Positions 2,895-27,907 of a stretch of DNA of 64,000 bases are shown piece after piece. The first letter of the stretch is position 1; every line of letters begins with the position of its first letter. Origin of the DNA: Janthinobacterium sp. 61 (lineage in GTDB: Bacteria > Pseudomonadota > Gammaproteobacteria > Burkholderiales > Burkholderiaceae_D); the NCBI RefSeq assembly GCF_002846335.1, contig NZ_PJMQ01000001.1:3472001-3536000 (forward strand). Reading direction: 5' to 3'. A model generated the notes under the pieces. That model saw only the letters and a list, made by a program, of their open reading frames with translations. It had not been told where the DNA came from and did not search any database. The translations under genes were made by a program, and so were the position numbers.

Positions 2895-4358
2895 CTACAG
2901 GCTGCGCAGCGCCCCTTCCAGCTGTGGATAGCGGAAGACAAAGCCGTCGGCCAGCAAACGGTGCGGTGCGACCCTTTGACCTTCCACCAGCAAGTCGGCC
3001 TGCTCGCCCAGCAAGGCGCGCATGGCGAAGGCCGGCGTGGGCATGAAGCTGGGCCGGTGCAGTACCGCGCCCGCCACCTGGGCGAAGCGGCGCTGCTCGA
3101 TGGCTTCCGGCGCGCAGAAGTTGTACGCGCCGCTCACCGCGCCTTGTTCGCTGCGGCGCGCCAGGTAAGCGACACCGCGGATCACGTCGCGCACATGCAC
3201 CCACGATACCCATTGCTTGCCGCTGCCGAGCGGGCCACCCACGCCGAAGCGGATCGGCAAGAGCATCTGCGGCAGCGAACCCTGGTGGCCGAAGACGAGA
3301 CCAAAGCGCATGCAGCCCACCTGCACGCCAAATTTCTCCGCCTGGCGCGCGGCCGCTTCCCATTCCTGGCACAGCTGCGACATGAAGATGGCTTGCGGCG
3401 CGCTCTCCTCCGTCAATTCCGTCGCGTCGCCCTGCGGCTGCACGCCGTAGTAACCGATGGCCGACGCGGACAGCAGCACCCTCGGCTTGTGCTGCGCGCG
3501 GGCGATCCACGCCACCAGGTCCTGCGTCAGCACCACGCGGCTGCGGCGCAGGGCAGCCTTGCGCGCGTCCGTCCAACGCTTCCCGACGATGCGCGCGCCG
3601 GCCAGGTTGACCACCATATCGATGCGCTGCGCGTCCGATAATTCGTTCAGCGACTGGATGCAGCGCAGCTTGCCGTCGAAGGTCCACGCGGCCTGCTTCG
3701 GCTGGCGCGTCAGCACCGTCACCGCGTGGCCGTCGGCCAGCAGGGCGCTGACCAACTGCTGGCCGATGAAACCCGTGGCGCCCGTCACCAGCACGGACTG
3801 TGGCGCGGCGGCAAAGCTCAGGTGTTCCTCTTGCTCTGCCGTCTCCTGTACCTTGCGCCGGCCCAACTGCCACACGGCATACGCGTCGCGCAGGCCGGAC
3901 AGGCCCACGCCCACGCCACACAGGGCCAGGAAGACGCTGAGCCAGCCATAAGGCTGCCACACGAGGGCCGTCGGCAGGCTCGCCCACTGGCTGCTGTTCA
4001 GGGCCAGCAGGGCGATGAAGGCGCCCGCGTTGATCGCCAGCACCGTGTGCGTGACCCGCTCCGTGGCGGGCAAGAGGCGGGTCTGGTCTTCGACGACGAA
4101 GTCCCACAGGGTCAGCACGATTTCCACGCCAAACACGATCACCAGTACCCAGGCCCAGGCGCCATGCCATTCCCAGGCGGCCAGGCCGACGAACAGCAGG
4201 CTGTAGATCAGCGCACGCGTGGCATGGATGGTCAATTCCAGGCGCGCCGACGCCTTTTGCGGCAGCGCTTCCGTGATTTCATGGTGGTAGATGGTGTCGA
4301 AGGCGCCCAGGCAGCCTTGCGCCGCCATCAGTTGCAGGGCCAGCAGATGCGTATTCAT
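2895..4358 (-). CDS. SDR-family epimerase (TIGR01777/YfcH type) with N-terminal membrane domain
   Basis: A 487-residue two-part protein. Residues 1 to about 170 hold several hydrophobic segments (for example YSLLFVGLAAWEWHG and WVLVIVFGVEIVLTL), suggesting a small integral-membrane domain. From about residue 185 a complete YfcH/SDR39U1-type NAD(P)-binding domain follows, with VLVTGATGFIGQQLVSALL and the family segment LLSASAIGYYG. Usual YfcH proteins are about 300 residues, so the membrane part is an added domain. The start at 4358 overlaps the stop of the DUF4166 gene as ATGA, implying translational coupling; longer upstream reading in this frame is a shadow. Substrate unknown. Third gene of the GbsR-DUF4166-epimerase operon. 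Confidence 0.88.
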   Translation of the reverse strand: MNTHLLALQLMAAQGCLGAFDTIYHHEITEALPQKASARLELTIHATRALIYSLLFVGLAAWEWHGAWAWVLVIVFGVEIVLTLWDFVVEDQTRLLPATERVTHTVLAINAGAFIALLALNSSQWASLPTALVWQPYGWLSVFLALCGVGVGLSGLRDAYAVWQLGRRKVQETAEQEEHLSFAAAPQSVLVTGATGFIGQQLVSALLADGHAVTVLTRQPKQAAWTFDGKLRCIQSLNELSDAQRIDMVVNLAGARIVGKRWTDARKAALRRSRVVLTQDLVAWIARAQHKPRVLLSASAIGYYGVQPQGDATELTEESAPQAIFMSQLCQEWEAAARQAEKFGVQVGCMRFGLVFGHQGSLPQMLLPIRFGVGGPLGSGKQWVSWVHVRDVIRGVAYLARRSEQGAVSGAYNFCAPEAIEQRRFAQVAGAVLHRPSFMPTPAFAMRALLGEQADLLVEGQRVAPHRLLADGFVFRYPQLEGALRSL

Positions 4359-4999
4359 GGTGTGTCCTTGTGAAGGGTGGGCGCCGCGCTTTCGCGGAAC
4401 ACGCCGACCTGGGTGAAGGTGGTGCCGAACAGGGCATGGCGGATTTCGATGCGGATGTTGAACTGCTGCGGCGTGTCGTTGCGGTGGCAGAGATAGGTCT
4501 TGCCTGGCGTGAGCACCCCGGGAAGTGGCATCCGCCAGCCGAAAAGATCGAGAAAATAGCCATCGCTGGTGAAGTGCAGGTTGCCATCTTCGACATGCAG
4601 CACCAGCTTCATGCCCAGCCCCATACCCACGTATTCGAGCACTTCGCCCTGTGCGCTTTCCGCCATGTAGGACGTGAAGCAGATGGGCGCGCGCCCGTGC
4701 AGACGGTAGGTGCGCTGCTTGAAGATGAAGGGGCAGCCGGGACGTGAATAGACTTCGATATCGACGGGGAAGTCGTGGTCGTCGTACGGAATCAGCGCGC
4801 CATCGATGAAGGGACGCGTCAGCCATCCCAGCACCTTGCCCAGGCGCGAACTGGTGAGTTCACTGAGTTCGCCCTGGTAATACAGGGGCTGGCCCGGCGC
4901 TGGATTTTTCTCGAAGCGGCGGCGGATGTCCGGATGCAGGGTGAGCCACTGCTCGCCCATCACCTTCCTGAACAGCTCTCCTTCGGAAGGCCCGTTCAT
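4355..4999 (-). CDS. DUF4166 domain protein
   Basis: A 214-residue protein I recognise as DUF4166-like, of unknown function. It starts MNGPSEGELFRKVMGEQW and contains PVDIEVYSRPGCPFIFKQ, GLGMKLVLHVEDGNLHF and HALFGTTFTQVGVFRES; no signal peptide or membrane segment is evident. Both ends overlap neighbours by 4 bp (ATGA), so it is tightly coupled to the upstream regulator gene and the downstream epimerase gene. DUF4166 domains also occur fused to NAD-dependent epimerase or saccharopine-dehydrogenase-like domains (family knowledge), which fits this neighbourhood. The specific reaction is not known. Confidence 0.8.
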   Translation of the reverse strand: MNGPSEGELFRKVMGEQWLTLHPDIRRRFEKNPAPGQPLYYQGELSELTSSRLGKVLGWLTRPFIDGALIPYDDHDFPVDIEVYSRPGCPFIFKQRTYRLHGRAPICFTSYMAESAQGEVLEYVGMGLGMKLVLHVEDGNLHFTSDGYFLDLFGWRMPLPGVLTPGKTYLCHRNDTPQQFNIRIEIRHALFGTTFTQVGVFRESAAPTLHKDTP

Positions 5000-5559
5000 G
5001 ACTTGCCCGGCTTTTTCGATTTCGCCGGCTTGTCGTCCGGACTGAGGAACTTGGCCACCTTGCCGCCCATGGAGAGCATGCGCTGCAGGGTGGCCGGCGG
5101 CAGGTTTTTATAGTCGCTGTAAGTGCTGCTGAGCATTTCCAGGAAGGCCAGCACTTCGCCCATGCGTTCCAGGGTGGCCCGCGGAATGGCCGCATCGTGC
5201 TCGCCCTCGATCGCGCACTCGCGCAGCACCGTCAGGGTGGGATCGATCTCGCGCCGCTTGCGTTCCTCCATGATGACCCGGAAGATTTCCCACACATCCT
5301 GCAGGGCGACGAAATGGTCGCGCCGGTCTTTCAATACATGCGTGATGCGCACCAGGCCCCAGCTTTGCAATTCCTTCAGGCTGTTGCTGACATTCGAACG
5401 GGCCACGTTCAGGCTGGCCGCGATGTCTTCCGCCGTCAGCGGTTCGTTGGCCAGGAACAGCAGCGCGTGGATTTGCGCCACGGTGCGGTTGACGCCCCAG
5501 CGGGTGCCCATTCCCCCCCAATGGAGAATGTACTTTTGCGTGGTGGGACTCAGTTCCAT
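4996..5559 (-). CDS. GbsR/MarR-type winged-helix transcriptional regulator
   Basis: A 187-residue DNA-binding protein. The winged-helix region is clear: INEPLTAEDIAASLNVARSN-like text (seen as EPLTAEDIAASLNVARSNVS) is the helix-turn-helix, followed by LKELQSWGLVRITHVLKDRR, typical of the GbsR family. A C-terminal dimerisation/effector segment follows, ending in a lysine-rich tail. It is first gene of an operon with the DUF4166 and epimerase genes (4-bp overlaps). Its promoter holds a perfect palindrome over the -10 element, so autorepression is likely. It lies 67 bp downstream of the fatty-acid desaturase gene, so it may also control the lipid cluster (inference). Confidence 0.85.
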   Translation of the reverse strand: MELSPTTQKYILHWGGMGTRWGVNRTVAQIHALLFLANEPLTAEDIAASLNVARSNVSNSLKELQSWGLVRITHVLKDRRDHFVALQDVWEIFRVIMEERKRREIDPTLTVLRECAIEGEHDAAIPRATLERMGEVLAFLEMLSSTYSDYKNLPPATLQRMLSMGGKVAKFLSPDDKPAKSKKPGKS

Positions 5560-5570
5560 GATTTTCTCTT

Positions 5571-5590
5571 ATTTCTGTCGTTACAGAAAT
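5571..5590. promoter_or_regulatory. Perfect inverted repeat, probable operator of the GbsR/MarR regulator
   Basis: ATTTCTGT-cgtt-ACAGAAAT, 8-bp perfect arms with a 4-bp centre, 11 bp upstream of the regulator start codon. It overlaps the predicted -10 box and start point, where a bound dimer would block transcription. Symmetric sites of this size are usual for MarR-superfamily dimers; binding is inferred. Confidence 0.7.
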
Positions 5591-5616
5591 GTAAGACGGA
5601 ACGGAAACAGAGTCAA
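5588..5616 (-). promoter_or_regulatory. Predicted sigma70 promoter of the GbsR-DUF4166-epimerase operon
   Basis: On the minus strand TTGACT (5616-5611), a 17-bp spacer and TACATT (5593-5588) form a good -35/-10 pair. The -10 box runs into the palindromic operator at 5571-5590. Confidence 0.55.
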
Positions 5617-5626
5617 GCACGATTCG

Positions 5627-6742
5627 TCAAGACTTTGCGGGCGGCTGGCCCATGGCGCGCAGGAAGGCTTGCTGCGAGGCGTGCAGCTGGCCATAACCGA
5701 GTTCGCGGTAGACGAGGCCGTGGCGCGGCGCCAGTTCGGCCAGGATGCGCGCCAGCGCCGGGTAGTGGCGGTGATTCCAGGTGGGGAACAAATGGTGCGT
5801 GAGGTGCAAATTCAAGCCGCCGAGCCAGTAGCCGAGCCAGCGCAGGCGGCGCGGTTGCGGCGTCCAGTCGCAGGCCGTGTAAAACGTGTGCTGGTACCAG
5901 TCATGCGGCAGGGTGCCGTCTGCGCCCGGCTGAAAAAATTCCACTTCGGCCCAGTGCGTACCGAGGATCAGCGCCACCAGAGCGCATGAGGCGATCATCT
6001 GGCCCACGAAATACGCGCCCAGCACGACGTCCCAGGCTATGCCGTGCTGCCGCAGCACCCACATGGGCAGCGCCAGCACCAACGCCACATGGCCCAGCTT
6101 CCAGCCCAGGAACGACAGCCAGCCGCGCCAGCCCTGCAAGCGGCTGTGCGCGGCCACGGGTGTCTTGCCGAATCGGTCCAGCCAGTCGCCATACCAGTTC
6201 AAATAAGGCAGCGACAGGGCAGCCACCACTGGCCAGTACAGGTATTGATAGCGATATTGGGGCGACCAGCTTTGGTACGGCGTCTGGCGCAGGAATGGAT
6301 TCGGTTCCGTGTCGAGGTCATAGCCTTCCACGTTGGCATAGGTGTGGTGGAAATGCACGTGGCGGATAGTCCAGAAATCCGTATCCACGCCCACGGGCAA
6401 GCCCACCAGCCGGATCAGGATGCGATTCAGGCGTCCCTGGCGGAAGACGGCGCTATGGGCAGCATCGTGCAGGGTATTCATGGCCAGCGCCATGGCCGTG
6501 ACCAGGCAAGCGACATAGCTGCCGACGAAGCCCAAGGTGCTGTCAGCGCGCAGCGCCAGCACATACAACAATACCGTCAGCACGGCCAGGAAGACGGCTT
6601 TTGCGTGCATGCGCACATCGCCAAAACGGTGCTTTCCTTCGGCCGCCAGGTAGGCGTCGGCGCGCGCGCGCAGTTCGCGGCGGAAGGCGGAATCGCGTGC
6701 GGGCTGGAAGCGCAACGGGGGCAAGGGAGGCACTGGCGTCAC
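5627..6742 (-). CDS. Membrane fatty-acid desaturase
   Basis: Integral-membrane di-iron desaturase of about 371 residues that would introduce a double bond into an acyl chain. The three histidine boxes are present: LHDAAH, RHVHFHH and HLTHH, between hydrophobic segments. I place the start at GTG 6742, which overlaps the upstream stop as GTGA; a longer reading in frame would lie inside the neighbouring gene. Last gene of a seven-gene minus-strand cluster starting with a ketosynthase III at 12629, so its likely substrate is the product of that cluster or its acyl precursor (inference). Confidence 0.88.
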   Translation of the reverse strand: MTPVPPLPPLRFQPARDSAFRRELRARADAYLAAEGKHRFGDVRMHAKAVFLAVLTVLLYVLALRADSTLGFVGSYVACLVTAMALAMNTLHDAAHSAVFRQGRLNRILIRLVGLPVGVDTDFWTIRHVHFHHTYANVEGYDLDTEPNPFLRQTPYQSWSPQYRYQYLYWPVVAALSLPYLNWYGDWLDRFGKTPVAAHSRLQGWRGWLSFLGWKLGHVALVLALPMWVLRQHGIAWDVVLGAYFVGQMIASCALVALILGTHWAEVEFFQPGADGTLPHDWYQHTFYTACDWTPQPRRLRWLGYWLGGLNLHLTHHLFPTWNHRHYPALARILAELAPRHGLVYRELGYGQLHASQQAFLRAMGQPPAKS

Positions 6743-7854
6743 GCGCGCGTCCCCGCCGCTGCCGGCCACCACAGGCGACGCGCGCCGTCGAGTCCATGCG
6801 CCAACAACGCTGCCAGGAATGCCATGCCCCACGCATCGCGGGCGCCATACCAGCCCAGATACAGGGCCGGCATGGCCAGGGCGATGGCCACCCAGGCGAT
6901 GGCGCCCCAGCGGCGCGCATCCGACAGGCCACCCAGGGCCAGGGTGCCGGTGAAGATCAGCGCAAACAGGATCGCCTGCTGAGTGCCGGCCAGCGCCGCT
7001 TCATGGTTGACGTAATAGATCACCAGGCCAAACAGGATCACGCCACCAATGCCGATGAACAGCTCGGGCACGTGGAAGGTGCCGCGCGACTGCCAGTGGG
7101 GAAAGCGCGCGCGCAGCCACTTGAACAGCTTTCCGTTGCTGGCCAACAGGGGGTTGTGCGTTTGTGCCATGCCCTTCACGCCATAGCGCATTTCCACGCC
7201 CGCGAGTTCGGGCTGGAAGCTGCCGAACAGCCTGTCCCACAACAGCAGGGTACCGCCGAAATTGCGGTTGATGTAGCGTGTATCGGTGCCGTGGTGTACG
7301 CGGTGGTGCGAGGGCGTGACCATGAATTTGTCGAGGATGCCAGACTTGTTCACCAGCGCATTGTGGTTGTAGAACTGCACCGTGTAATGCAAGGACGAGA
7401 CCACGAGGAAGATTTCCAGCGGCACGCCAAGCACGGCCAGAATGGCGATGAAGGGGAAATTCGTCAGCGATGAGTACCAGGAATTGCGCACGCCCAGCGA
7501 CAGGTTGAAATGCTCGCCCTGGTGGTGCACCACGTGCACGGCCCACAGCAAAGGGATTTTATGGTGCAGCCTGTGCATCCAGTAAAAGCACAGGTCCCAG
7601 GCAAAAAAGGCGAACACCCATTGCGCGGCCACGGGCCACTGGTCGACGATATGCAGGTTCACATGGCGCAGCAGCATGGCGAAGGCCGCCACTTCCACGC
7701 CGCGGAATACCCACATCAGGATGTGGCCGGAATTGAGATTGAAAATGACGTCTTTCCACGGCACCGGCGTCTTGCGCACCCATTTCAGGATCAGCAGTTC
7801 GGCCAGCACGAAGGCCAGCATGACAAGGAAAGAGAGGGCAAAGGGATTCATCAT
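6739..7854 (-). CDS. Sterol desaturase / fatty-acid hydroxylase family membrane protein
   Basis: A 371-residue multi-spanning protein of the fatty-acid hydroxylase superfamily, a non-heme di-iron oxygenase group acting on lipids. The histidine motifs are complete: HRLHH, HVVHHQGEHFN and SHHRVHHGTD. A C-terminal part of about 120 residues has four further hydrophobic stretches, longer than the catalytic core needs. The start ATG at 7854 overlaps the preceding PAP2 gene stop as ATGA, and its own stop overlaps the next gene, so expression is coupled. Bacteria of this group do not normally make sterols, so an acyl or polyketide-like lipid is the likely substrate (inference). Confidence 0.88.
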   Translation of the reverse strand: MMNPFALSFLVMLAFVLAELLILKWVRKTPVPWKDVIFNLNSGHILMWVFRGVEVAAFAMLLRHVNLHIVDQWPVAAQWVFAFFAWDLCFYWMHRLHHKIPLLWAVHVVHHQGEHFNLSLGVRNSWYSSLTNFPFIAILAVLGVPLEIFLVVSSLHYTVQFYNHNALVNKSGILDKFMVTPSHHRVHHGTDTRYINRNFGGTLLLWDRLFGSFQPELAGVEMRYGVKGMAQTHNPLLASNGKLFKWLRARFPHWQSRGTFHVPELFIGIGGVILFGLVIYYVNHEAALAGTQQAILFALIFTGTLALGGLSDARRWGAIAWVAIALAMPALYLGWYGARDAWGMAFLAALLAHGLDGARRLWWPAAAGTRA

Positions 7855-8489
7855 GATGCGGATTTTATGGAAATGGCGCGGCGGGCAGTCAAGGATACCT
7901 GCATTTTCGCCAACATGCCGCCAGCGATGCCCACGGCCAGACCGGCGGCCAGGTCGATGCTCACGTGCCGGCGCAGCGCGATGATGGCGTAGCAGATCGC
8001 CAGGCCCAGCATCACGGCCAGCGCGGAGCGCACCAAGTGACGCCTGTCGCACAAGGCCCACACGCACAGCAGGGTCAGGGCGCCATGCAGCGACGGCAGG
8101 CAGTTTTGCGCGGAATCGGCCGCTTGCAGCATGCGCAGCGCCTGCGTGCTCCAGGCACTGCCTTCACCCACGGGCGGATATGCGAGGGTGGTCGGATACA
8201 GCAGGAAGACCACGCCGCAGCTCAGGGCAGAAAGCGCCATTGCGCGCGCCAGCCAGCGCACACGCGCTGCATCGGCCACCAGGTAGGCGTAGGGGATCAG
8301 GATAAAGAAAGACAGGTACAGCCAGATGGCGGCATCCGTATAGGGAATGGCGCGGTCGATGGCCGTTTCGGGCAGCAGCACTCCCTGCCCTTGCAGCAAG
8401 TCGCTGGAAAAATACACAAGGCCGACACTGCCCCAGCCGGCCAGCAAATGCAGCAGGCGACCGCGTGCAGTCATGGGAGAAGGATTCAT
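7851..8489 (-). CDS. PAP2-superfamily membrane phosphatase
   Basis: A 212-residue polytopic protein with about six hydrophobic segments. The PAP2-like active-site blocks are CLPSLHGAL (conserved S and H) and RRHVSIDLAAG (second H followed by D); the first basic motif is poorly defined, as in inositol-phosphorylceramide-synthase-like members. It would remove or transfer a phosphate on a lipid at the membrane. It overlaps both neighbours by 4 bp, so it belongs to the operon with the adenylate-forming enzyme and the sterol-desaturase-family protein. Confidence 0.82.
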   Translation of the reverse strand: MNPSPMTARGRLLHLLAGWGSVGLVYFSSDLLQGQGVLLPETAIDRAIPYTDAAIWLYLSFFILIPYAYLVADAARVRWLARAMALSALSCGVVFLLYPTTLAYPPVGEGSAWSTQALRMLQAADSAQNCLPSLHGALTLLCVWALCDRRHLVRSALAVMLGLAICYAIIALRRHVSIDLAAGLAVGIAGGMLAKMQVSLTARRAISIKSAS

Positions 8490-9781
8490 GCTGTCGCAAG
8501 GCGCCGGATGCGGCGCCGTTTCATGGTGGGGTCAAAGGAAGGCAATTCGCCGCTCGTCGTCCAGGCCAGGCCGTCGACGGCCACGCCCAGGCCGCGCAGC
8601 ACCGTTGCCAGGTGCGCGCGCAGGGCGGCCAGGCCGGCATCGTCCAGGGCCGCGTGCAGCTGCAAGGCCGCTACATCCGACTGCACCAGACGGTAATCGG
8701 CGTCCGGCGGCAAGGCTTGCGCGAAGGCCCGCGTCAATACATCGGCAAACACGGCGACGGGTTCGCCGCCGCACGCGGAAGGCAGCAGCAGCAAGTCGTC
8801 GCAGCGCCCTTCGATGCCGGCGATGGCGCGCGTGGCGCGGCCGCACGGGCATGGCGTGGCGCGCGCGAGCAGGATGTCATCCAGGCGGTAGCGCACGATG
8901 GGCTGCGTGATGCGCGTAAAGTCCGTAATCACGGGCACGAAGCGGCTTTGTTCCTCATCGAGCCATTGCGGCTCGACGTGCACATATTCCTCGTTCAGAT
9001 GCAGCACGCCGTGCTCGCAGCTACTGGCAAGAAAACCCTCGGTGGCCTGGTAGATTTCATGCACGGCGCCAAACGCCTGCACGATCAGGGCGCGGTCCTG
9101 TGCTTCGAGCACTTCGGCAACCGAAATGACTTTTTTCGGTCCCAGCGCCAGGCTGCCGTCGATGACGCGCAAGGCCAGCTGGCGCAGCACCTGGGCCGGT
9201 GCGACGATGACGGAAGGTTGATATTGCGCAAGCTGCGCGCACAGGCTGTCGAACGGTTCGAACAGGTCATAGAAGGCAAAGGTGAGCCACGGCGAACGCA
9301 CGGCCGTGTACAAATTGCTGTTCGCGCGCAGGAACAGGGCCACCCGTTCGCCGGAAAACAGCCCGTCTGGCAGCGCCTTGGCCAGCATCACGCCCGCCCA
9401 TTGGGCTTTTTCGCGGGGGCTGACGGTAAACACGGCGCGCCGCGAGGAGGTGCCCGACGACAGGCCTACGGTGATATCGCCCACGGCAGGCGTGAAGTCG
9501 CGGCTATGCTCGGCGGCCATGGCAGAAGCCATCGCCTGCGCTAAAGTGACGCCTTCCGTGTTCATGGCATCAAAGTGTTCGAGCATCAGCGCCTTGTTCA
9601 TGCTTGGCCACTGCGCCAGGGGCAGCTTGCGGTACGGCGCAAAGTAGCTGCTGCGCGCGCACAGCGTGTCCATGAAACGCGCCAGCTGCTCCTGCTGGTA
9701 ACTTTCCAGCTGCGCGCGGCTTGCGAAGCGCAAGCGGCGCGTGTGCCAGTACGACAGCAACAGCCAGAAAATACGCTTCAC
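8486..9781 (-). CDS. PaaK-like adenylate-forming enzyme (F390-synthetase-related)
   Basis: A 431-residue member of the phenylacetate-CoA-ligase branch of adenylating enzymes, shorter than classical acyl-CoA synthetases. Visible motifs are the phosphate-binding VGLSSGTSSRRAVFTVS, the A5-like YQATEG, and VRYRLDDILLARATPC with a CPCG cysteine pair, followed by GRCDDLLLL. It should activate a carboxylic acid with ATP; whether the product is passed to CoA, cyclised or amidated is unknown. Its start overlaps the stop of the MBL-fold hydrolase gene by 4 bp. It is not of the OleC beta-lactone-synthetase size, so the cluster is not a simple oleABCD set. Confidence 0.82.
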   Translation of the reverse strand: MKRIFWLLLSYWHTRRLRFASRAQLESYQQEQLARFMDTLCARSSYFAPYRKLPLAQWPSMNKALMLEHFDAMNTEGVTLAQAMASAMAAEHSRDFTPAVGDITVGLSSGTSSRRAVFTVSPREKAQWAGVMLAKALPDGLFSGERVALFLRANSNLYTAVRSPWLTFAFYDLFEPFDSLCAQLAQYQPSVIVAPAQVLRQLALRVIDGSLALGPKKVISVAEVLEAQDRALIVQAFGAVHEIYQATEGFLASSCEHGVLHLNEEYVHVEPQWLDEEQSRFVPVITDFTRITQPIVRYRLDDILLARATPCPCGRATRAIAGIEGRCDDLLLLPSACGGEPVAVFADVLTRAFAQALPPDADYRLVQSDVAALQLHAALDDAGLAALRAHLATVLRGLGVAVDGLAWTTSGELPSFDPTMKRRRIRRLATA

Positions 9782-10608
9782 GGGCGGCCCGCCACAGGCA
9801 AATAATCGAGCGTATCTTCATGCGTGATGCGTATCTGCGCATTGCCCGACTGGTGCAGCTGGTGCAAGCGGTTCAGGGTCGCGTAATACGGGGCGCGCTT
9901 GTGCTGGATGATGAACGACAGTTCGGACGGCCCGCGCAGCTGCTGAAAACTCTCCGGCACCCAGGCCGCGTCCGAGGCCAGCAAGGTCCAGCCGCCATCC
10001 TGCAGCACGAAGGCACCGATATGGCCGATGGCGTGGCCGGGCAGGTCGACGATGTAAATCTCGCCTGTGCCGCTGACGTCGCGCCCGTGCGTAAACGGCA
10101 GCAAGGCGGCCGGCAAGGGCGTCTCCGGCACGCTTTCGACAAAAGCCAGGCGGTCGGCAATGTCGGACGGCAGCAGCTCGGGCACGAAGGCCTGGCGCAC
10201 GGCGGCCACGCCGGACAGGCCGCGCACGGCATCCCAGCCCGGTTTTGACGCCATCAGACGCGCGCCGGGAAAGTCGCGCAGGCCGGCGATATGGTCGGCG
10301 TGGAAGTGCGACAGCAGCAAGGTATGGATGTCGCCGGGGGACACGCCATGCGCGCGCAACTGGCCCTGCAAGGACTCCTGCGCGTCAAACGAGATCGGCG
10401 TCACCCACGCATACATGCGGTACACGCCCTTCGCCGTGGCGGCGCGGAAGTGTTCGGCGTAACCGGTATCCCACAGGTACAGGCCCGCGCGCGTTTCGAT
10501 CAGGTAGGCGCGCGAGGGGAAGCAGCGGCTGGCCAGCCCGCTGCCTTTCAAGACCATGCACGATGGGTGGGTGCAGTGGCCGACGCGAAACGCGGTAATG
10601 CTAGCCAT
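9778..10608 (-). CDS. Metallo-beta-lactamase-fold hydrolase
   Basis: A 276-residue cytosolic MBL-fold protein. Metal-binding motifs are LLLSHFHADHIAGL (HxHxDH), then GHAIGHIG, LLASDAAWVP and a C-terminal ITHEDTLDYL, giving a full di-metal site. The family includes lactonases, thioesterases and glyoxalase II. Given a neighbouring ketosynthase and ligase, a thioesterase or (beta-)lactonase role in the pathway is plausible but unproven. The start at 10608 overlaps the SDR gene stop by 8 bp; the next gene overlaps its stop by 4 bp. Confidence 0.87.
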   Translation of the reverse strand: MASITAFRVGHCTHPSCMVLKGSGLASRCFPSRAYLIETRAGLYLWDTGYAEHFRAATAKGVYRMYAWVTPISFDAQESLQGQLRAHGVSPGDIHTLLLSHFHADHIAGLRDFPGARLMASKPGWDAVRGLSGVAAVRQAFVPELLPSDIADRLAFVESVPETPLPAALLPFTHGRDVSGTGEIYIVDLPGHAIGHIGAFVLQDGGWTLLASDAAWVPESFQQLRGPSELSFIIQHKRAPYYATLNRLHQLHQSGNAQIRITHEDTLDYLPVAGRP

Positions 10609-11638
10609 TGCGTTCCTTGCCCACCTTGTGCGCCGCCGCTTCCTGGCGCATCCACTGCGCCGTCAGGGCGATGCCTTCCTGCAGGCTGACGATGGGACGG
10701 TAGCCGAGCACCTTGCGCGCCTTGGCGTTATCGAGCGTCATGTCGAAACTGAGCGCGCCGATGCTGTAGGGCGTGAGGGAAGGCTCGCGCCGCGTGAAAC
10801 GCGAAGCGAACTGCATCAGGCGCGCAGCCAGCGCCAGCACGCGGTACGGCACGCTGACGATCTCGAACGGCTGCTGCAGATGCTCGCAGAACAGGCTGCG
10901 CAAAATGTCGCACAGGCGCGCCGGTTCGCCATTCGTGATGTTGAAGGCGGCGCCCGAAGCGATGGTCTTGTGCACGGTGGCCAGCCACATCGCATGCACG
11001 ACATTGTCGACATAGGTGACATCGATGGTGACCGCGCCGCCCCTGGGCAGCGGCAGCTTGCCGCCGCGCTCCTGCAGCACGCGTGCCAGGCGCGGGATCA
11101 GCACCTGGTCGTGCGGGCCGAAGATGGCGCGCGGGCGCAGGATCACGCAGGTCATGCCGCGATGGCGGTCCACCGATTCCTGCACCAGCTTTTCCGCCAT
11201 CGCCTTGGAGCGCGCATAGGCGTTGACGTAAGCATCTGGGCGGAAGGTTTCCGCTACCTCGTAGCGGTTGCGGTAATCGAAATACATGGCCGGGGTGGAG
11301 ATGTGTACGAAGCGCGCCACGTGCAGGCTGGCGGCCGCGCGCAGCAACTGGCCCGTGGCCGTGACGTTGGCGGCGATGAAGTCGCGCTCCGGGCCCCATG
11401 GCGAGGACAGCGCGGCGCAGTGCCAGACGGTGTCCATGCCGCGCACCAGTTCATCGACCTGGCGCGGCGATGCTTGCGCCAGATCAAGCGCGACGAATTG
11501 CGCGCCCATGCGTTCGAGTTCACGGCCGACAGCGGCGTTGCGGCCCGTGGCGCGCACTTCCACGCCCTGCGCCAGCAATGTACGCACGGCATTGCGTCCC
11601 AAGCCGCCCGTTGCTCCCGTGACCAGTATCCGCCTCAT
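10601..11638 (-). CDS. NAD(P)-dependent SDR, OleD / 3-beta-HSD-like
   Basis: A 345-residue extended short-chain dehydrogenase. The Rossmann motif is ILVTGATGGLGRNAVRT and the catalytic pair is in YARSKAMAEKL (YxxxK); HISTPAMYFDYR and ILRPRAIFGPHDQV are typical of the 3-beta-hydroxysteroid-dehydrogenase/OleD branch. OleD enzymes reduce the 2-alkyl-3-keto acid made by OleA, which suits the ketosynthase immediately upstream. I chose ATG 11638 because GAAGGCGG precedes it; a start seven codons earlier would run into the ketosynthase stop region. Ten bp separate the two genes. Confidence 0.86.
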   Translation of the reverse strand: MRRILVTGATGGLGRNAVRTLLAQGVEVRATGRNAAVGRELERMGAQFVALDLAQASPRQVDELVRGMDTVWHCAALSSPWGPERDFIAANVTATGQLLRAAASLHVARFVHISTPAMYFDYRNRYEVAETFRPDAYVNAYARSKAMAEKLVQESVDRHRGMTCVILRPRAIFGPHDQVLIPRLARVLQERGGKLPLPRGGAVTIDVTYVDNVVHAMWLATVHKTIASGAAFNITNGEPARLCDILRSLFCEHLQQPFEIVSVPYRVLALAARLMQFASRFTRREPSLTPYSIGALSFDMTLDNAKARKVLGYRPIVSLQEGIALTAQWMRQEAAAHKVGKERNG

Positions 11639-11648
11639 CGCACCGCCT

Positions 11649-12629
11649 TCACAGATCAAGAATCATGCCGCCGATGGTCAGGCCTGCGGCCGTGCCCATC
11701 ATCAGCAAACGCTGGCCTGCGACGGCCCGCCCCGTCATCACCGCCTCGTGCAGGGCGGTGGGCAAGGACGCGGCCACCTGGTTGCCATGCGTTTCGAAGA
11801 TCTTGATGATTTTAGCATCGGGAACGTCGAGGATGCGCGCCGCATGCGCGAGCCCCAGCGGGCTGGCCTGGTGCGGCACGACCACATCGACTTTCTCCAG
11901 GCCGGCGCCCGCTTCCTGCATGAGTTCCGCCAGGAAATCCGGCATCACCTTGACGGCCAGGCGGAACACGGCCTTGCCATCCATGCGGAACAGGTAATCG
12001 CCCGGTGCGCAGCCGTTGCGCGGGTTGCGCTCGGTGCCGCCGCCGCGGATTTCGCAGTAGCGCCGCCCTTCCGGATACGTGCCCATCTTGTAGGCGCGGA
12101 TGCCGGCACTGCCGTCACCCCGCTCGACGATGACGGCGGCGGCGCCGTCGCCAAAGATCATCGACGCTTCCGGCTCGCTCCAGTCGACCCCGCGCGAGGC
12201 GAGGTCGGACGAGACGATGGCGATGCGCCGGTAGGCGCCACCGGCCAGCATGGACGCGGCCACGCGGAAAGCGGCCATGAAACTGAGGCAGCTGGCGTTG
12301 ACATCGAAACTTTGCGTGCCTGGCGGCAAACCCGCGTGTTCTGCAACGAAACAGGCCGTGTTCGGCAAAGCCTGCTCAGGCACGCCGCAGGCGCAGATCA
12401 GCAGATCGATGTCGGACGGACGCAGGCTGGCGTTCTTCAGCGCGTCGAGCAGGGCGCCAGCGCCCAACTGGCTTTGCGATTCATCGGGCGCAGCGACAAA
12501 GCGCGACAGCACGCCGCTCTTGCGCAAGGTGTAGCCGGCCGGATGGCCCAATTTCAGGTCCAGGCTTGCGGAAGTAACGCTATGCGACGGCACGGCTTTG
12601 CCCGTCGCGATCAGGCGAACTGGAATCAT
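11649..12629 (-). CDS. Ketoacyl synthase III, FabH/OleA family
   Basis: A 326-residue thiolase-fold condensing enzyme. The Cys-His-Asn triad is visible in FDVNASCLSFMAAF, VVPHQASPLGLAHA and ETHGNQVAASLPTAL. The PHQAS form of the histidine motif resembles OleA/KAS III-like enzymes that condense acyl-CoAs or start unusual chains, rather than canonical FabH (PHQAN). It is first gene of the seven-gene lipid cluster. A good ribosome-binding site (AAGG) precedes ATG 12629. The only transcription space is 49 bp after the K+ channel gene, which holds a direct repeat. No acyl-carrier protein gene is in the cluster. Confidence 0.88.
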   Translation of the reverse strand: MIPVRLIATGKAVPSHSVTSASLDLKLGHPAGYTLRKSGVLSRFVAAPDESQSQLGAGALLDALKNASLRPSDIDLLICACGVPEQALPNTACFVAEHAGLPPGTQSFDVNASCLSFMAAFRVAASMLAGGAYRRIAIVSSDLASRGVDWSEPEASMIFGDGAAAVIVERGDGSAGIRAYKMGTYPEGRRYCEIRGGGTERNPRNGCAPGDYLFRMDGKAVFRLAVKVMPDFLAELMQEAGAGLEKVDVVVPHQASPLGLAHAARILDVPDAKIIKIFETHGNQVAASLPTALHEAVMTGRAVAGQRLLMMGTAAGLTIGGMILDL

Positions 12630-12657
12630 GTTGGCCTTAACAAAATAAAGTAAATAC

Positions 12658-12676
12658 GGTCTATGTTTGGTCTATG
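12658..12676. repeat. Direct repeat GGTCTATG x2, candidate control site of the lipid cluster
   Basis: Two identical 8-mers, GGTCTATG at 12658-12665 and 12669-12676, start 11 bp apart (one helical turn) in the 49-bp gap before the ketosynthase gene. Spacing and position suit a regulator site near the promoter; the function is inferred. Confidence 0.4.
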
Positions 12677-12678
12677 AG

Positions 12679-13587
12679 CTAATCGCGTGCCAGCGGCGGC
12701 AAATCAACACCGCAGTTCTTGCAGAAATTGGCATCATCATCGAGCCCTTCTTTCAGGCACGTGGGGCAGGTACGCGTGGTAACCAGCTTGGAACTGCGTT
12801 GTACCGTCATTTCGGCACTGATAATGCCGGTAGGCACTGCCAGGATGCCCCAGCCGAGCAGCATCATCAGAGAAGCGATGGTGCGCCCGATGTCGGTGCG
12901 CGGCGTGATATCGCCGAAACCCACCGTGGTCATGGTGCTGATGGCCCAGTATATCGAGGTGGGAATACTGCTGTAACCGTTATCCGGCCCTTCCACGACA
13001 TACATCACAGTACCCAACAGAAAGACCACCATCATGACAAAAGACAAGAAAATGAGGATCTTGCGGCGGCTGGCCAGCAAGGCCCGCCCCAGCACCGTGT
13101 ATTCATGCACATAGGACGTGAGCTTGAGGATACGGAACATCCGCAGCAGGCGCAAAATACGCACGTCGATCAGCACGTGCGCACCTGGCAGCAGCAAGCC
13201 GATGTAAGTCGGCACGATGGCCAGCAAGTCGATAATGCCAAAAAAACTCTTGGCGTAGCGCACCGGATGCCGCAGGCACGACAGGCGGGCAAGGTATTCG
13301 ATGGTAAATAAAATGGTGAAAAACCATTCCAGCGCCGTCAGCCAAGTGCCATAGCGCTCCGCCACGGAGGCGACACTGCTGAGCACGACCACCGTCACAC
13401 TGATCAGGATAGCGGCGATCAGCAGCAGGTCGAAGGCGCGGCCCGTGCGCGTTTCCGCCTCGAAAATGACGGTGTACACCTGCTCGCGCCAGCCCCGTTC
13501 GGGCTTGCCAAATTTTTGCTGCGTTTCCTGCGCCGCAATCTGCTGCGGCGTCAAGGGTGCCGCCCCGCTCTTCGTCGCGGCTTTCAT
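12679..13587 (-). CDS. Voltage-gated K+ channel (Kv-like) with C-terminal zinc ribbon
   Basis: A 302-residue six-segment channel subunit of the inner membrane. The voltage-sensor S4 helix is RILRLLRMFRILK (about 153-165), and the pore selectivity filter is TTVGFGD (about 220-226) between S5 and S6. After S6 a cytosolic tail carries a four-cysteine ribbon, CPTCLKEG...FCKNCG, just before the C-terminus; zinc binding there is inferred. Start chosen at ATG 13587; an in-frame TTG at 13632 would add 15 residues and overlap promoter-like AT-rich sequence. It precedes the lipid cluster by 49 bp on the same strand and might feed read-through transcription into it. Confidence 0.9.
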   Translation of the reverse strand: MKAATKSGAAPLTPQQIAAQETQQKFGKPERGWREQVYTVIFEAETRTGRAFDLLLIAAILISVTVVVLSSVASVAERYGTWLTALEWFFTILFTIEYLARLSCLRHPVRYAKSFFGIIDLLAIVPTYIGLLLPGAHVLIDVRILRLLRMFRILKLTSYVHEYTVLGRALLASRRKILIFLSFVMMVVFLLGTVMYVVEGPDNGYSSIPTSIYWAISTMTTVGFGDITPRTDIGRTIASLMMLLGWGILAVPTGIISAEMTVQRSSKLVTTRTCPTCLKEGLDDDANFCKNCGVDLPPLARD

Positions 13588-13679
13588 GTGGGTAGTGTGC
13601 TCATATACTATTATTGTATAGATAATTGACAAAGCACGGCGACACGCACGTTTGCGCTACAGGTTTCACTACGACAGCA

Positions 13680-15431
13680 CTACGACAGCTTCTTCGCCAG
13701 CAGCACGGCATTACGCCGGTCGCGCTCCGCTTGCACGATGTCCGTCGTGCGCGCTTCCGAGAGGCCTACCGTGTGCAGCACGGTGGCCGTCAGCTGCAGC
13801 GCCGATTCCAGTGCTTCGGGCACGACCAGGGTGGCGCCCGCCTGCATCAGGGCCACCGCATGCGCCTCGTCGCGCGCACGCGCATACACGGGCAGCTGTG
13901 GATATTCGCGGCGGATCGATTTCACGGCATGCAGGACGGACGCTGCATGGTCCATGGTCAGTACCACGGCGGCAGCCCGGTCGGCATTGACTTTTTGCAA
14001 CAATTCCGCGCGCGACGCGTCGCCGAAATACACGGGGAAACCGCGCGGATGCAGGGTCGTCACCAGGCGCGCATCATTTTCTATCGCCACATAGGCGATA
14101 TCCTGCTCCGTCAGCACCTTGGCCAGCAACTGCCCCACCCGGCCGAAACCGGCGATGATGACGGTGCTGCCCTGCGGCGGCAGCGCGCCGTGCGCAAGGT
14201 CGGCCAGTTGATGGTGATGGCGCTTTTCCCACCAGTTGCCGAAAGCGCGCGCCGCCTTGGCCAGCGCCGGCGTAGCAAACAGGCTCAGGCCCACCACCAG
14301 CATGACGAACTGCGCCACCTGCGGGCCGATCAACTTCGTGCCCAGCGCATACGCGACGACGATGAAGGCAAATTCGCCGCCCTGCCCCAGCAGCACGCCC
14401 GTTTCCACGGCGCGCCCCCAGTGAAAACCGCCGATGCGGAAAATCACGCTGATGACCAGGGTTTTCACCGCAAACAGGCTCAGCACGGCCAGCGGAATCA
14501 AGATCGGCGACTTGAGGATCTCGCGCACGTCGATCTGCATGCCCACCGACATGAAGAATAGGCCCATCAGCAAACCTTTAAAAGGCTCGATCGTCACTTC
14601 CACTTCGTGGCGAAATTCCGTTTCCGCCAGCAGCAAGCCCGCCAGCAAGGCGCCCAGCGCCATCGACAGGCCTGCCAGATACGTCAATCCCGCGATACCC
14701 AGGGTGCTGAGCAAGGTCAGGGCCATGAACACGTCAGGCTGTCGTTTTTTGACGAAAAACTGGAACAGCGGACGGATCACGCGGCGCCCCAGCAGATAGA
14801 TCAGCAGGATGGCGCCCGCCGATTTCACGGCTGCAAAGCTGAGCAGATACGCCAGGTCGTCGCTGCGCCCGCTGGCAAACACGTCGATCAGGATGAACAG
14901 CGGCACCACCATCAAATCCTGGAACATCAGGATGGAAAAGCCCGCCTGGCCGCTTGGGGTCTGCAGGGAGCGCTGGTCGGTCAGCAACTGCATCACGACG
15001 GCCGTGGATGACAGCGACAGCACCAGGCCCAGCACGATGGACGCTTCCAGCGACAGGCCGAAGTAATACGCGACGACGCCGATCAGGCAAGCGCTGACAG
15101 CCACCTGCCCCACGCCCGCGCCAAACACCCAGCGCCGCAGCGCCCACAGGCGTTCGGTCGACAGTTCCAGGCCGATCATGAACATCAAAAACATCACGCC
15201 CAGCTCAGCCAGGCCGCTGACCTGCTCGGCACGCACGAACGAAAAATACGTCAGCCACGTGAATTCACCAGCCCACAGGCCGAAGCCGAACGGGCCGAAC
15301 AGGGCGCCGACGGCCAGGAAGCCGAGCACCTGGTTGACCTTCAGGCGTTGCAATAGCGGAATAAAAATCCCGGCCAAGGCGAGAAACAGCAGGGTTTCTC
15401 GCAAATACGGTAAGGCGTGTTGCTCTTCCAA
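13680..15431 (-). CDS. Kef-type K+/H+ antiporter (CPA2 family) with TrkA-N domain
   Basis: A 583-residue monovalent cation:proton antiporter-2 protein. Residues 1 to about 390 hold some twelve membrane spans with family motifs such as LAELGVMFLMFMIGLELS and GVLLGQGGEFAFIVVAYAL. A cytosolic regulatory Rossmann (TrkA-N) domain follows, with STVIIAGFGRVGQLLAKVL. It matches the full-length KefB/KefC architecture, though glutathione gating cannot be shown and no KefF/KefG partner is next to it. It lies on the same strand and 92 bp before the channel gene, so the two K+ transport proteins may share regulation. Confidence 0.9.
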   Translation of the reverse strand: MEEQHALPYLRETLLFLALAGIFIPLLQRLKVNQVLGFLAVGALFGPFGFGLWAGEFTWLTYFSFVRAEQVSGLAELGVMFLMFMIGLELSTERLWALRRWVFGAGVGQVAVSACLIGVVAYYFGLSLEASIVLGLVLSLSSTAVVMQLLTDQRSLQTPSGQAGFSILMFQDLMVVPLFILIDVFASGRSDDLAYLLSFAAVKSAGAILLIYLLGRRVIRPLFQFFVKKRQPDVFMALTLLSTLGIAGLTYLAGLSMALGALLAGLLLAETEFRHEVEVTIEPFKGLLMGLFFMSVGMQIDVREILKSPILIPLAVLSLFAVKTLVISVIFRIGGFHWGRAVETGVLLGQGGEFAFIVVAYALGTKLIGPQVAQFVMLVVGLSLFATPALAKAARAFGNWWEKRHHHQLADLAHGALPPQGSTVIIAGFGRVGQLLAKVLTEQDIAYVAIENDARLVTTLHPRGFPVYFGDASRAELLQKVNADRAAAVVLTMDHAASVLHAVKSIRREYPQLPVYARARDEAHAVALMQAGATLVVPEALESALQLTATVLHTVGLSEARTTDIVQAERDRRNAVLLAKKLS

Positions 15432-24778: not shown

Positions 24779-27700
24779 ATGTGGATGACCAAAGTCAGTA
24801 TTCAAAACCCCGTCTTCGCCACCATGGTCATGGTGGCGCTGGTGGTGCTGGGCATCTTCTCCTACCGGGGCCTGGGCGTGGAAAGCATGCCCAGCGTGCA
24901 GTTCCCGTTCGCCGCCATTGAAGTGAACTACCCGGGCGCCTCGCCCGAAGCGGTGGAAAACGACATCACGCGCCCTATCGAGGACGCCGTCAACACCGTC
25001 AGCGGCATCAAGACCATCCGCGCCAACTCGTGGGAAGGACGCGCCGGCGTCTACCTGGAATTCGAGCTGTCGACCAACATGGACAAGGCCATGCAGGACT
25101 TGCGCGACAAGGTGGCCCTGGTGCGACCGCGCTTCCCGAAGGAAGCCAAGGACCCGTTCATCGCGCGCGCCGAAGGCGACAACGAGCGCCCCATCGCCAC
25201 CATCGTGCTGACATCGACCGGGCATGACCTGCGCTCGCTGTCGACCATGACGGAGCAGATCATCAGCAAGCGCTTCCAGGGCGTGGCCGGCGTGGGGCAA
25301 GTCAAGCTGCGCGGCCTGCGCGCGCGCCAGATCCTCATCAGCATGAAGCCCATCGAACTCAATGCCCAGGGCATCGGCGTCGATGAAGTCATCCGCGCCA
25401 TCCAGGCGACGAATACCAACCTGCCGGCCGGCTCCATCAGCCATGGCGCGGCCGAACAACTGGTGCGCGTGGAAGGCAAGATCAAGGATGCGCGCGAATT
25501 CGGCAAGATCATCGTCGCGCGCCGCGCCGTCGGCCCCGTCTACCTCGACCAGGTGGCCACCGTCGTCGACGGCGAGCAGGAAGAGCTGTCGATCTCGCGC
25601 ATGAACGGCCAGCAAGCCGTGACCATGGAAATCACCAAGGTGCAGGACGCCAACGTGGTCGAAGTGGGCACAGGCATCCTGAAAGTGGCTGCCGACCTGC
25701 AAAAGACCCTGCCGCCCGATATCAAGCTGCGCGTGCTGGACGACGAATCGGAGCGCGTGCAAAGCCAGCTCAATAACGTCAAGCGAACCATCATCGAAGG
25801 CGCCGTGCTGACCATGGTGATCGTCTTCCTGTTCCTGCACTCGTGGCGCTCGACCATCATCACGGGCCTGACCCTGCCGATCTCCGTGCTGGCCAGCTTC
25901 ATCGCCATGAAGGCGTTTGGTTTCACGCTGAATTTCCTGACCCTGATGGCGCTGTCCTTGTGCATCGGCCTCTTGATCGATGACGCCATCGTGGTGCGCG
26001 AAAACATCGTGCGTCACCTGGGCATGGGGAAAAATCACTACAAGGCGGCCAACGACGGCACCAATGAAATCGGCCTGGCCGTGATGGCTACCACGTTCGC
26101 CATCGTCGCCGTGTTCGTGCCCGTCGCCTTCATGGACGGCATCATCGGCCGCTTCTTCCTGCAGTTCGGCATCACCGTCGCCGTCGCCGTTCTCGTCTCC
26201 CTGTTCGTCAGCTTCACGCTCGACCCCATGCTGTCATCCGTCTGGCGCGATCCCGTCAAGGACCGCTTCAAGTATGCGCCGTGGCTGGGCCGCTTCATGG
26301 CCTGGTTAGAGACGGGCATCGACCGCCTGCACGTCTGGTACGGCAAGGTGTTGAAAGTGGCCCTGCGCTGGCGCAAGACGACGCTGGCCACCGCCTTGGC
26401 CCTGTTCGTGGGCAGCCTGATGCTCGTGCCGATGATCGGCGGCGAGATGTTCCCGGAAACGGACCAGGGCTGGGTCAACCTGCGCTTCAAGACGCCCGTC
26501 GGCTCCAGCCTCGACTACACGGATTCCAAAGTGCGCCAGGTGGAAGCAGCCTTGAAGGAATTCCCCGAAATCGACAGCCTGGTGGCCAATATCGGCACGC
26601 CCGATGGACGCAACGCGGCCGAAGTGAACCTGAAGCTGACAGATATCAAGACGCACAAGCGCCGCTCGCAGCAGGAACTGGAAAAGCTGATCCGCGAACG
26701 CCTGGCGCCGATTGCCGGCATCACCCTGTCGGTCGGCAACCGCCCCATTTTCATCGCCATCCTCGGCACCGACGAAGGCAAGCTCGATGCAGTGGCGCAC
26801 CGCCTGATGGACAAGATGCGCACCATCAAGGGCCTGGCCGACATGGAATACAGCCAGGAAGGCGCCAACCCGTCGACCACGGTGAAGATCAACAACGAAC
26901 TGGCCAGCGACCTGGGCTTGTCGGTGCAGCAGATCGGCAATGCCCTGCGTCCGTTCGTGGCGGGCGACACGGTCAGCCACTGGCTGGCGTCCGACGGGCA
27001 AAACTACGACGTCAACGTGCAGCTGCCCAAGTCGGGCCGGCAAAAGGTGGCCGACCTGGCCGACCTGTCGCTGGCGTCCAGCAAGCTTGATGCGAACGGC
27101 AAGCCCGTCATGATTCCGCTGCGCCAGGTGGTCGATTTCGTGCCGTCGTCCAGCCCACAGGTGCTGAAACGCCAGGCCTTGCAGCGCCGCGTCGCCATCT
27201 ATGCGGGCGTGCAGGGCCGCCCTGCCGGCGACGTCGACGCCGACGTGCAGAAAGCCATCAAGTCCATCGACCTGCCGCCGGGCGTGCGCTTCGACGTGGC
27301 CGGCAATGCGCAGCAGATGGCTGAAACCATGGGCGGCGCGATGATGGCGCTGGGTATCGCCGTGATCTTCATCTACCTGGTGCTGGCCTCGCAATTCGGC
27401 AGCTTTTTGCAGCCGATCGCCATCATGGTGTCCCTGCCGCTGTCCCTGATCGGCGTGCTGCTGGCCCTTCTCATTACGGGCAGCACCCTGAACATCTTCT
27501 CCGTGATCGGCTTCATCATGCTGATGGGCCTGGTCACCAAGAATGCGATTCTGCTGGTGGACTTCACCAACCAGCGCCAGCGCGAAGGCCTGGGACAGTT
27601 CGAAGCGCTGATGGAAGCGGGGCAAGTGCGTTTGCGCCCCATCCTGATGACGACACTGGCGATGGTCTTCGGCATGCTGCCGATGGCCATCGGCATGGGC

Positions 27701-27907
27701 GACGGCGGTGAATCGCAGGCGCCGATGGGCCGCGCCGTCATCGGCGGCGTCATCACCTCGACCCTGTTGACCCTGGTGGTGGTGCCCGTCGCCTACACCT
27801 ACCTCGACAGCCTGGGCAAGCGCGCCGCGCGCTTTTTCGGCGGCAGCGGCGGCGGCGAGCATGCCCACGCGGATGCCGCCGACGACGGCAAAGCACACGC
27901 CCACTGA
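24779..27907 (+). CDS. RND multidrug efflux permease (HAE1/AcrB-like)
   Basis: A 1042-residue inner-membrane proton-driven exporter. Typical features: N-terminal [20 protein letters not shown], porter-domain [22 protein letters not shown]4 [20 protein letters not shown] with the proton-relay aspartates, and late [18 protein letters not shown]. The C-terminus is a short His/Asp-rich tail ([18 protein letters not shown]), unusual and possibly metal-binding. Expressed with the adaptor upstream. TolC must come from elsewhere in the genome (inference). Substrates unknown. Confidence 0.93.

Follow-up and report, generated by a model that had tools for sequence, protein, structure and literature searches.

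Closest described systems and the Janthinobacterium operon

MxnB and CorB, the ketosynthases of myxopyronin and corallopyronin biosynthesis, serve polyketide assembly, in which alpha-pyrones are formed from two chains, and work with polyketide synthase (PKS) carrier proteins. Their closest counterpart here is a type III ketosynthase (KAS III) encoded by the first gene of a seven-gene operon in Janthinobacterium sp. 61. The operon lies in a window of 64,000 nucleotides (positions 3472001-3536000; the 6.0 Mb host genome is a single contig). Its ketosynthase shares with MxnB and CorB a common clade, the motifs QA(L/V)P and (V/I)N(A/S)SC(L/V)(S/G)F in most alignment rows, and the absence of the OleA-type Glu. 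The seven genes include neither a PKS nor an acyl carrier protein (ACP). Unlike MxnB and CorB, ketosynthases of this group are accompanied in nearly all loci examined by a short-chain dehydrogenase/reductase (SDR), a metallo-beta-lactamase-fold (MBL) hydrolase and a PaaK-like adenylate-forming enzyme, and we refer to these four genes as the core.

Other described systems resemble the operon in part. As in OleABCD, a single operon holds a KAS III, an SDR with OleD as its best NCBIfam model and an adenylating enzyme, but the OleA Glu is replaced, the OleD score falls below the cut-off, the adenylating enzyme represents the PaaK/F390 type, and an MBL protein stands in place of OleB. FabH is similar in superfamily and in its Cys-His-Asn triad, whereas its clade and several of its functional residues differ from those of the core ketosynthases. 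The fourth gene product is a clear member of TIGR02304, the 'F390 synthetase-related' family, which was named by resemblance. In sphingolipid and hopanoid tailoring, GT21, PF04116, membrane desaturase and PAP2_3 proteins act on ceramide- or hopanoid-like lipids; in contrast, the enzyme that accompanies the tailoring genes of this operon is a KAS III.

The seven genes, which occupy 12629-5627 of the minus strand, are given below in gene order.

11649..12629, minus strand: core gene 1, KAS III-type ketosynthase of the MxnB/CorB branch, 326 amino acids (aa), PF08541/PF08545
10601..11638, minus strand: core gene 2, extended SDR/epimerase-family reductase, loosely OleD-related, 345 aa, PF01370 and PF01073
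9778..10608, minus strand: core gene 3, MBL-fold hydrolase resembling acyl-homoserine lactonases, 276 aa, PF00753
8486..9781, minus strand: core gene 4, PaaK-like adenylate-forming enzyme, TIGR02304 (F390 synthetase-related), 431 aa, no Pfam match
7851..8489, minus strand: tailoring gene, PAP2_3-family membrane phosphatase/phosphotransferase, 212 aa, PF14378
6739..7854, minus strand: tailoring gene, membrane oxygenase of the sterol-desaturase/fatty-acid-hydroxylase family, 371 aa, PF04116 (93.3 bits)
5627..6742, minus strand: tailoring gene with a GTG start, membrane fatty-acid desaturase family, 371 aa, PF00487 (101.6 bits)

The initial annotation had described seven same-strand genes with five overlaps of 4 or 8 bp and one gap of 10 bp, and had counted two di-iron membrane oxygenases and a PAP2 phosphatase among them. 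Direct inspection of the reading frames confirms the arrangement (a gap of 10 bp followed by overlaps of 8, 4, 4, 4 and 4 bp in gene order), and the operon membership of the PAP2 protein and of both oxygenases, which have histidine boxes, is supported. The start codons of the SDR, hydroxylase and desaturase genes were chosen by us from the frames; the SDR was placed at an ATG, while an alternative TTG at 11659 would overlap the ketosynthase gene.

Selection on the operon is reflected in the ratio of nonsynonymous to synonymous substitution rates (dN/dS). When the genes are compared with those of four other Janthinobacterium the ratio ranges from 0.04 to 0.27, and when they are compared with those of a Massilia, where dS is high, from 0.25 to 0.49. 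Invariance of catalytic or metal-ligand residues was checked in four of the seven proteins. The MBL protein keeps HxHxDH, H192, D213 and H263, the dinuclear-metal set, in 39 of 39 aligned rows; the PSLH and RH...D residues of the PAP2 protein are unchanged in 22 of 22, the box histidines of the PF04116 hydroxylase in 18 of 18, and the histidine boxes of the PF00487 desaturase in 17 of 17. Judged by sequence comparison, the operon is a real, selected and conserved functional unit, beyond chance.

Identity of the ketosynthase and its partner enzymes

The ketosynthase carries the Cys-His-Asn triad, and the position of the OleA Glu is occupied by Leu within QALP. Its closest relatives in the PDB are MxnB (4v2p, 192.6 bits) and CorB (4yuc, 188.2 bits), whereas FabH structures score at most 161.4 bits, enzymes of the Pseudomonas quinolone signal (PQS) pathway 82.6 bits at best, and OleA 57.9 bits. 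The fabH model gives 205.4 bits, below its cut-off of 292.1, and the best model, PRK07204, gives 335.9 bits, also below its cut-off of 402. At the position of OleA E117, Leu is found in 27 of 28 core ketosynthases and Ile in the remaining one (locus L114), while MxnB and CorB have Val and OleA (3row) has Glu. The equivalent of FabH Arg249, an Arg that we take to mediate ACP docking, is Leu in all 28. The position of the FabH Trp presumed to stack against coenzyme A (CoA) is not kept either, although the Arg at the Arg151 position is retained in most rows, and the Thr that follows the catalytic Asn in FabH is mostly Gln. According to PMC4578411, the Glu is essential in PpyS and is replaced by Val in MxnB and CorB, and the authors place MxnB and CorB within the FabH clade.

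A tree of 43 KAS III rows was built, for which 17 other KAS III loci and four FabH-like loci were added as outgroups; its outgroup rows comprise nine of the FabH type, three of the OleA type and ten of a third ketosynthase type of the host. One clade of 17 rows (support 99/99) unites 14 core ketosynthases with MxnB, CorB and one added row, a ketosynthase of no assigned type. MxnB and CorB are nested inside the core clade with their exact place unresolved, the FabH-type rows form a group of their own (98/98) with the core ketosynthases elsewhere, and the OleA rows are far off. This tree is to be read with the caveat that several outgroup rows sit on long branches and that the added row L200 landed inside the clade of core ketosynthases, MxnB and CorB. 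A tree of 35 rows agrees, joining the core ketosynthases to MxnB and CorB with support of 96/89 and putting OleA and the third ketosynthase on long branches. In a tree of 41 rows FabH was the only other group, so its 100/100 split shows only that the FabHs cohere and is silent on the grouping with MxnB and CorB.

By its residues, scores and tree position the ketosynthase belongs with the chain-joining ketosynthases MxnB and CorB, not with FabH or OleA. This grouping is in itself no proof that the core ketosynthases join chains. The initial annotation had left the choice between FabH and OleA to such a tree. A housekeeping FabH identity was rejected in view of the separate clade and the Leu at the Arg249 equivalent in all 28 sequences, and the host genome has a separate FabH gene at 2481352. 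The suggestion of an OleA-like enzyme did not survive: Leu or Ile occupies the E117 position in 28 of 28 sequences, and the OleA score is far from those of MxnB and CorB. The same annotation had stated that the cluster is not the standard ole set, and this was borne out. The standard ole pathway was rejected on the OleA Glu, the OleD score, the types of ligase and hydrolase, and the ketosynthase tree; Pfam and NCBIfam searches of the seven proteins returned an MBL hydrolase and no alpha/beta-hydrolase, and no orthologue of OleD, OleC or OleB.

The remaining proteins were characterized to various depths. The SDR scores 167 bits with the OleD model against a cut-off of 580; it is the best of 14 sub-cut-off matches of that model in the genome, none of which exceeds the cut-off. 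The structure model of the MBL protein has a predicted local distance difference test (pLDDT) score of 91.4, and its nearest PDB fold is the lactonase AhlX (template modelling score, TM, 0.78/0.83; 21% identity), followed by other lactonases. The protein thus resembles acyl-homoserine lactonases, and lactonase activity is a prediction from the modelled fold. The ligase matches TIGR02304 with 486.1 bits (cut-off 251.9), and a profile search against solved structures points to the PaaK type. TIGR02304 is sparse: in genome samples that each include the window's own, hits above the cut-off number 11 of 145 at the level of the taxonomic family, 2 of 369 at that of the class and 7 of 398 at that of the phylum. 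No match to the ligase was found in phage records at E 1e-15, nor was a TIGR02304 match found in one E. coli control genome. The PF04116 protein gives 72.5 bits with the OlsE model, below the cut-off of 475, and its structure model is poor (mean pLDDT 67.8). Two more PF04116 hydroxylase-family genes are located outside the operon, at genome positions 5480430-5480861 and 4993456-4993857.

Gene order and exchangeable partners

A search of named genomes with a six-row ligase alignment provided the best 80 loci of at least 407 confirmed relatives. These loci were picked by ligase similarity, so the conservation of order is measured among near relatives. The order KAS III, SDR, MBL and PaaK-like enzyme on one strand is present in 76 of the 80. 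Of the four exceptions, three (L066, L109 and L119) are truncated where their contigs end, and the fourth, from Moraxella (L116), is rearranged. The PAP2, hydroxylase and desaturase genes follow the core directly in 48 loci, 22 of which have two desaturases, and all seven genes occur in order in 47. Carriers of this downstream set include Massilia, Chromobacterium, Aquitalea, Burkholderia, Pectobacterium, Serratia, Pseudomonas, Citrobacter, Rahnella and Gilliamella. Conservation of the whole gene order across Burkholderiales had been proposed as a check of the initial annotation, and its outcome is strongly positive as to the order; confinement to Burkholderiales does not hold, since the core reaches other gamma-proteobacteria, alpha-proteobacteria, Bacillota and Fusobacteriota.

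Of 37 genomes of the genus, counting that of the window, 30 have a ketosynthase match at E 1e-60 or better, whereas the 24 sampled genomes from the rest of the order have none; some of the seven genus genomes without a match are incomplete. In the 13 named Janthinobacterium loci the ketosynthases show 85-98% identity, the upstream kef and channel genes are shared, and in most of the loci so are the downstream genes. The flanks vary by lineage: kef and channel genes border these 13 loci, and narGHJI borders 13 loci of Serratia, Leclercia, Citrobacter and Escherichia. In the plasmid collection, where 24 records have a ligase match, the core is contiguous in 10 of the 15 records examined and all seven genes are present in two.

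The operon is also common in E. coli. Matches covering 80% or more of the SK1144 operon occur in 671 of 5,426 complete genomes of the species, or about one in eight. Named carriers among the 60 matches listed include CFT073, Nissle, ATCC 25922, NRG 857C, JJ1887 and EC958, which we take to be phylogroup B2 strains. In the chromosomes of SK1144, CFT073 and Nissle the operon lies between narGHJI (narI) and the tRNA-Tyr genes (L137, 9196-16077). In MG1655 (NC_000913.3; L157, 3527-4245) it is absent from the narI/tRNA-Tyr interval, which holds only ychS, rttR and tpr. In E. coli S7 (L144, 10680-10795) the operon is broken within the sterol-desaturase gene, and the break adjoins a CPBP protease gene, pemIK and Tn3-family transposase genes.

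Outside the seven-gene arrangement the core has other partners, which in alpha-proteobacteria, Bacillota and Fusobacteriota are GT21, ATP-grasp, GNAT, Rieske and DUF3419 proteins. In ten of the 80 loci, all from Enterobacterales by name, the core is followed by an SDR, a GT21 glycosyltransferase (PF13506, HpnI-like) and a macrolide-type glycosyltransferase, and nine of these ten also have a protein of about 196 aa without a known domain. In Fusobacterium vincentii (L146) the core genes, arranged in another order, are accompanied by both a GT21 protein and a small protein homologous to that of 196 aa; between Fusobacterium and Enterobacterales the small protein is 26% identical (E 1e-14) and the GT21 protein 28% (E 5e-49). 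The protein of about 200 aa beside GT21 (L082, 13385-13975; L146, 6211-6858) has no Pfam match, and its L082 copy has no NCBIfam match.

In Noviherbaspirillum the core is followed by a protein resembling non-ribosomal peptide synthetases (NRPS), with adenylation and carrier domains, a desaturase and a PAP2 protein. In one Rhizobium, Shinella and Roseateles it is followed by a protein of the GNAT type, or an unnamed one homologous to it, together with Rieske and ATP-grasp proteins, and in another Rhizobium by DUF3419. Paenibacillus and Pontibacillus (L139 and L145) have an ATP-grasp gene inserted inside the core, and in two Rhodobacterales a sulfotransferase adjoins it, as confirmed by Pfam in one. 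In 14 of the 80 loci the core lacks any tested tailoring gene directly downstream; four of these, all from Xenorhabdus, have a PAP2 gene upstream, and Herbaspirillum has the PAP2, hydroxylase and desaturase set placed divergently. Since the partners vary among lineages, the four-gene core is the constant part, with PAP2 and the two oxygenases as one finishing set.

In the Janthinobacterium window a MarR-type gene of the same strand lies on the downstream side of the operon, and a gene for an ion channel on the upstream side. Scans of 4900-13700 gave 6 promoter-like and 11 terminator-like sites, compared with 2.0 (standard deviation, sd, 1.4) and 6.6 (sd 2.6), respectively, in shuffled sequence, and were not used as evidence. 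An open frame at 2895-4826 encodes, from residue 345 on, an epimerase/DUF1731 protein; its N-terminal part of about 340 residues has no Pfam match, and it may be a fusion or an over-long frame. Two genes for AcrB-type pumps of the resistance-nodulation-division (RND) efflux family lie about 5 kb apart at 24779-27907 and 32723-37088, and behind the second comes an outer-membrane efflux protein gene.

A possible lipid pathway and its alternatives

We tentatively favour, as a possibility that falls somewhat short of being probable, that the operon encodes a dedicated lipid-type pathway in which the conserved four-enzyme core makes a hydroxylated fused-chain backbone and an exchangeable tailoring set finishes it. 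The ketosynthase would join two activated acyl or beta-ketoacyl chains, and reduction of the keto group by the SDR would leave a hydroxyl. The lactonase-like MBL protein may hydrolyse a thioester or lactone intermediate, and the PaaK-like enzyme may adenylate a carboxylate to give a CoA thioester, or else drive ester or lactone formation. The core would deliver a fused-chain lipid backbone that carries a hydroxyl. In Janthinobacterium and E. coli alike, this backbone would then be modified by the PAP2 protein, the sterol-desaturase-family hydroxylase and the desaturase, and elsewhere it would be finished by glycosyltransferases or by ATP-grasp/GNAT, Rieske, DUF3419 or NRPS-like enzymes. GT21, PF04116, PF00487 and DUF3419 are families that act on lipid chains or lipid hydroxyls. 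Several of the tailoring sets, namely those with GT21, DUF3419 and the sulfotransferase, consist of families acting on lipid-like or hydroxyl acceptors and are counted in favour of the proposed pathway. The conserved order of the core, the clade shared with MxnB and CorB, the Leu at the Arg249 equivalent and the resemblance of the MBL model to lactonases are further points for it.

Several observations weigh against this proposal. Since the seven genes include no PKS or ACP, a reaction similar to that of MxnB and CorB is not assured; the sequence distance of the core ketosynthase from these two enzymes is large, and other KAS III enzymes carry out acyl transfer or decarboxylative extension. 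The term 'OleD-related' is loose, as every one of 14 control genomes also contains matches to the OleD model below its cut-off, and the lactonase fold of the MBL protein is compatible with a thioesterase too. On the Pseudomonas megaplasmids pMPPla107 (L149, 1354-21197) and pBASL58 (L140, 5321-15254) the core genes are spread over approximately 10-20 kb, scattered among hypothetical genes, and on a plasmid of Paracoccus sp. TOH (L154, from the ketosynthase search) the ketosynthase occurs without the other three nearby.

Other products have to be considered. The pqs operons also combine a KAS III, an MBL protein and an AMP-forming ligase, and by analogy the ligase could make the CoA thioester of an aromatic or short acid, which the ketosynthase would extend, with the MBL protein as a thioesterase in the manner of PqsE and the SDR as a reductase, so that the product would be a small signal molecule or antibiotic of aryl or alkyl type rather than a membrane lipid. 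The 14 core-only loci would suit such a product. We consider it unlikely, given that the ketosynthase scores higher with MxnB and CorB than with PQS enzymes and that membrane lipid enzymes are the commonest neighbours. An analogue of the ole pathway, with the ketosynthase for OleA, the SDR for OleD, the PaaK-like enzyme as a beta-lactone synthetase for OleC and the MBL protein for OleB, would lead to a beta-lactone or a long-chain olefin. Four enzymes of matching reaction type are indeed joined in one operon, with OleD as the best model of the SDR and a lactonase fold in the MBL protein. This route nevertheless seems quite improbable, as the OleA Glu is replaced throughout, the OleA rows are distant in the tree, the OleD score is far below the cut-off, the ligase is of the TIGR02304/PaaK-like type and OleB is an alpha/beta-hydrolase; moreover, the glycosyltransferases downstream in some hosts clash with a hydrocarbon product.

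A lipid-remodelling operon would be a different matter: the ketosynthase would make an unusual fatty acid primer in the manner of FabH, and the other genes would put it, in modified form, into phospholipids. The FabH-superfamily fold agrees with this, as do the desaturase and hydroxylase families, which act on membrane acyl chains. The probability of this scheme is low as well, considering that the ACP-docking Arg and CoA-stacking Trp positions are not kept (unlike Arg151, whose position still has an Arg in the majority of rows), that the clade is apart from the nine FabH-type rows and that the genome has a FabH of its own.

No description of the cluster was found in a full-text search of open-access PMC papers, nor did any paper in that collection contain the name 'F390 synthetase-related'. 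Passages of three F390 papers (PMC5467263, PMC5501837 and PMC2649909) hold nothing on the cluster. In PMC9823363 a Tn5 mutant of the Pseudomonas that causes kiwifruit canker is listed with a virulence score of 2; the gene hit is named 'Coenzyme F390 synthetase' and may be the TIGR02304 orthologue, and we treat the report as a lead only.

The proposed pathway would matter beyond Janthinobacterium. Relatives of the core span three phyla, Pseudomonadota, Bacillota and Fusobacteriota. It is conceivable, if on present evidence doubtful, that the core represents an undescribed and widespread route to a lipid backbone outside the glycerol-, sphingoid- and isoprenoid-based types. In such a route a KAS III would fuse two acyl chains, the keto group would be turned into a hydroxyl, and lineage-specific enzymes would add head groups such as sugars or amino acids, or would hydroxylate and desaturate the chains, in hosts that range from Fusobacterium to E. 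coli strains of clinical and probiotic origin. Carriers of the operon include the probiotic strain Nissle and ATCC 25922, a reference strain; production of a new lipid or metabolite, should it occur, could be tested directly in strains that are kept in many laboratories, with K-12 as a natural comparison. Should the proposal prove true, the role of the 'F390 synthetase-related' family would be revealed, and chain joining of the MxnB/CorB type would extend from rare antibiotic clusters to a widespread pathway.

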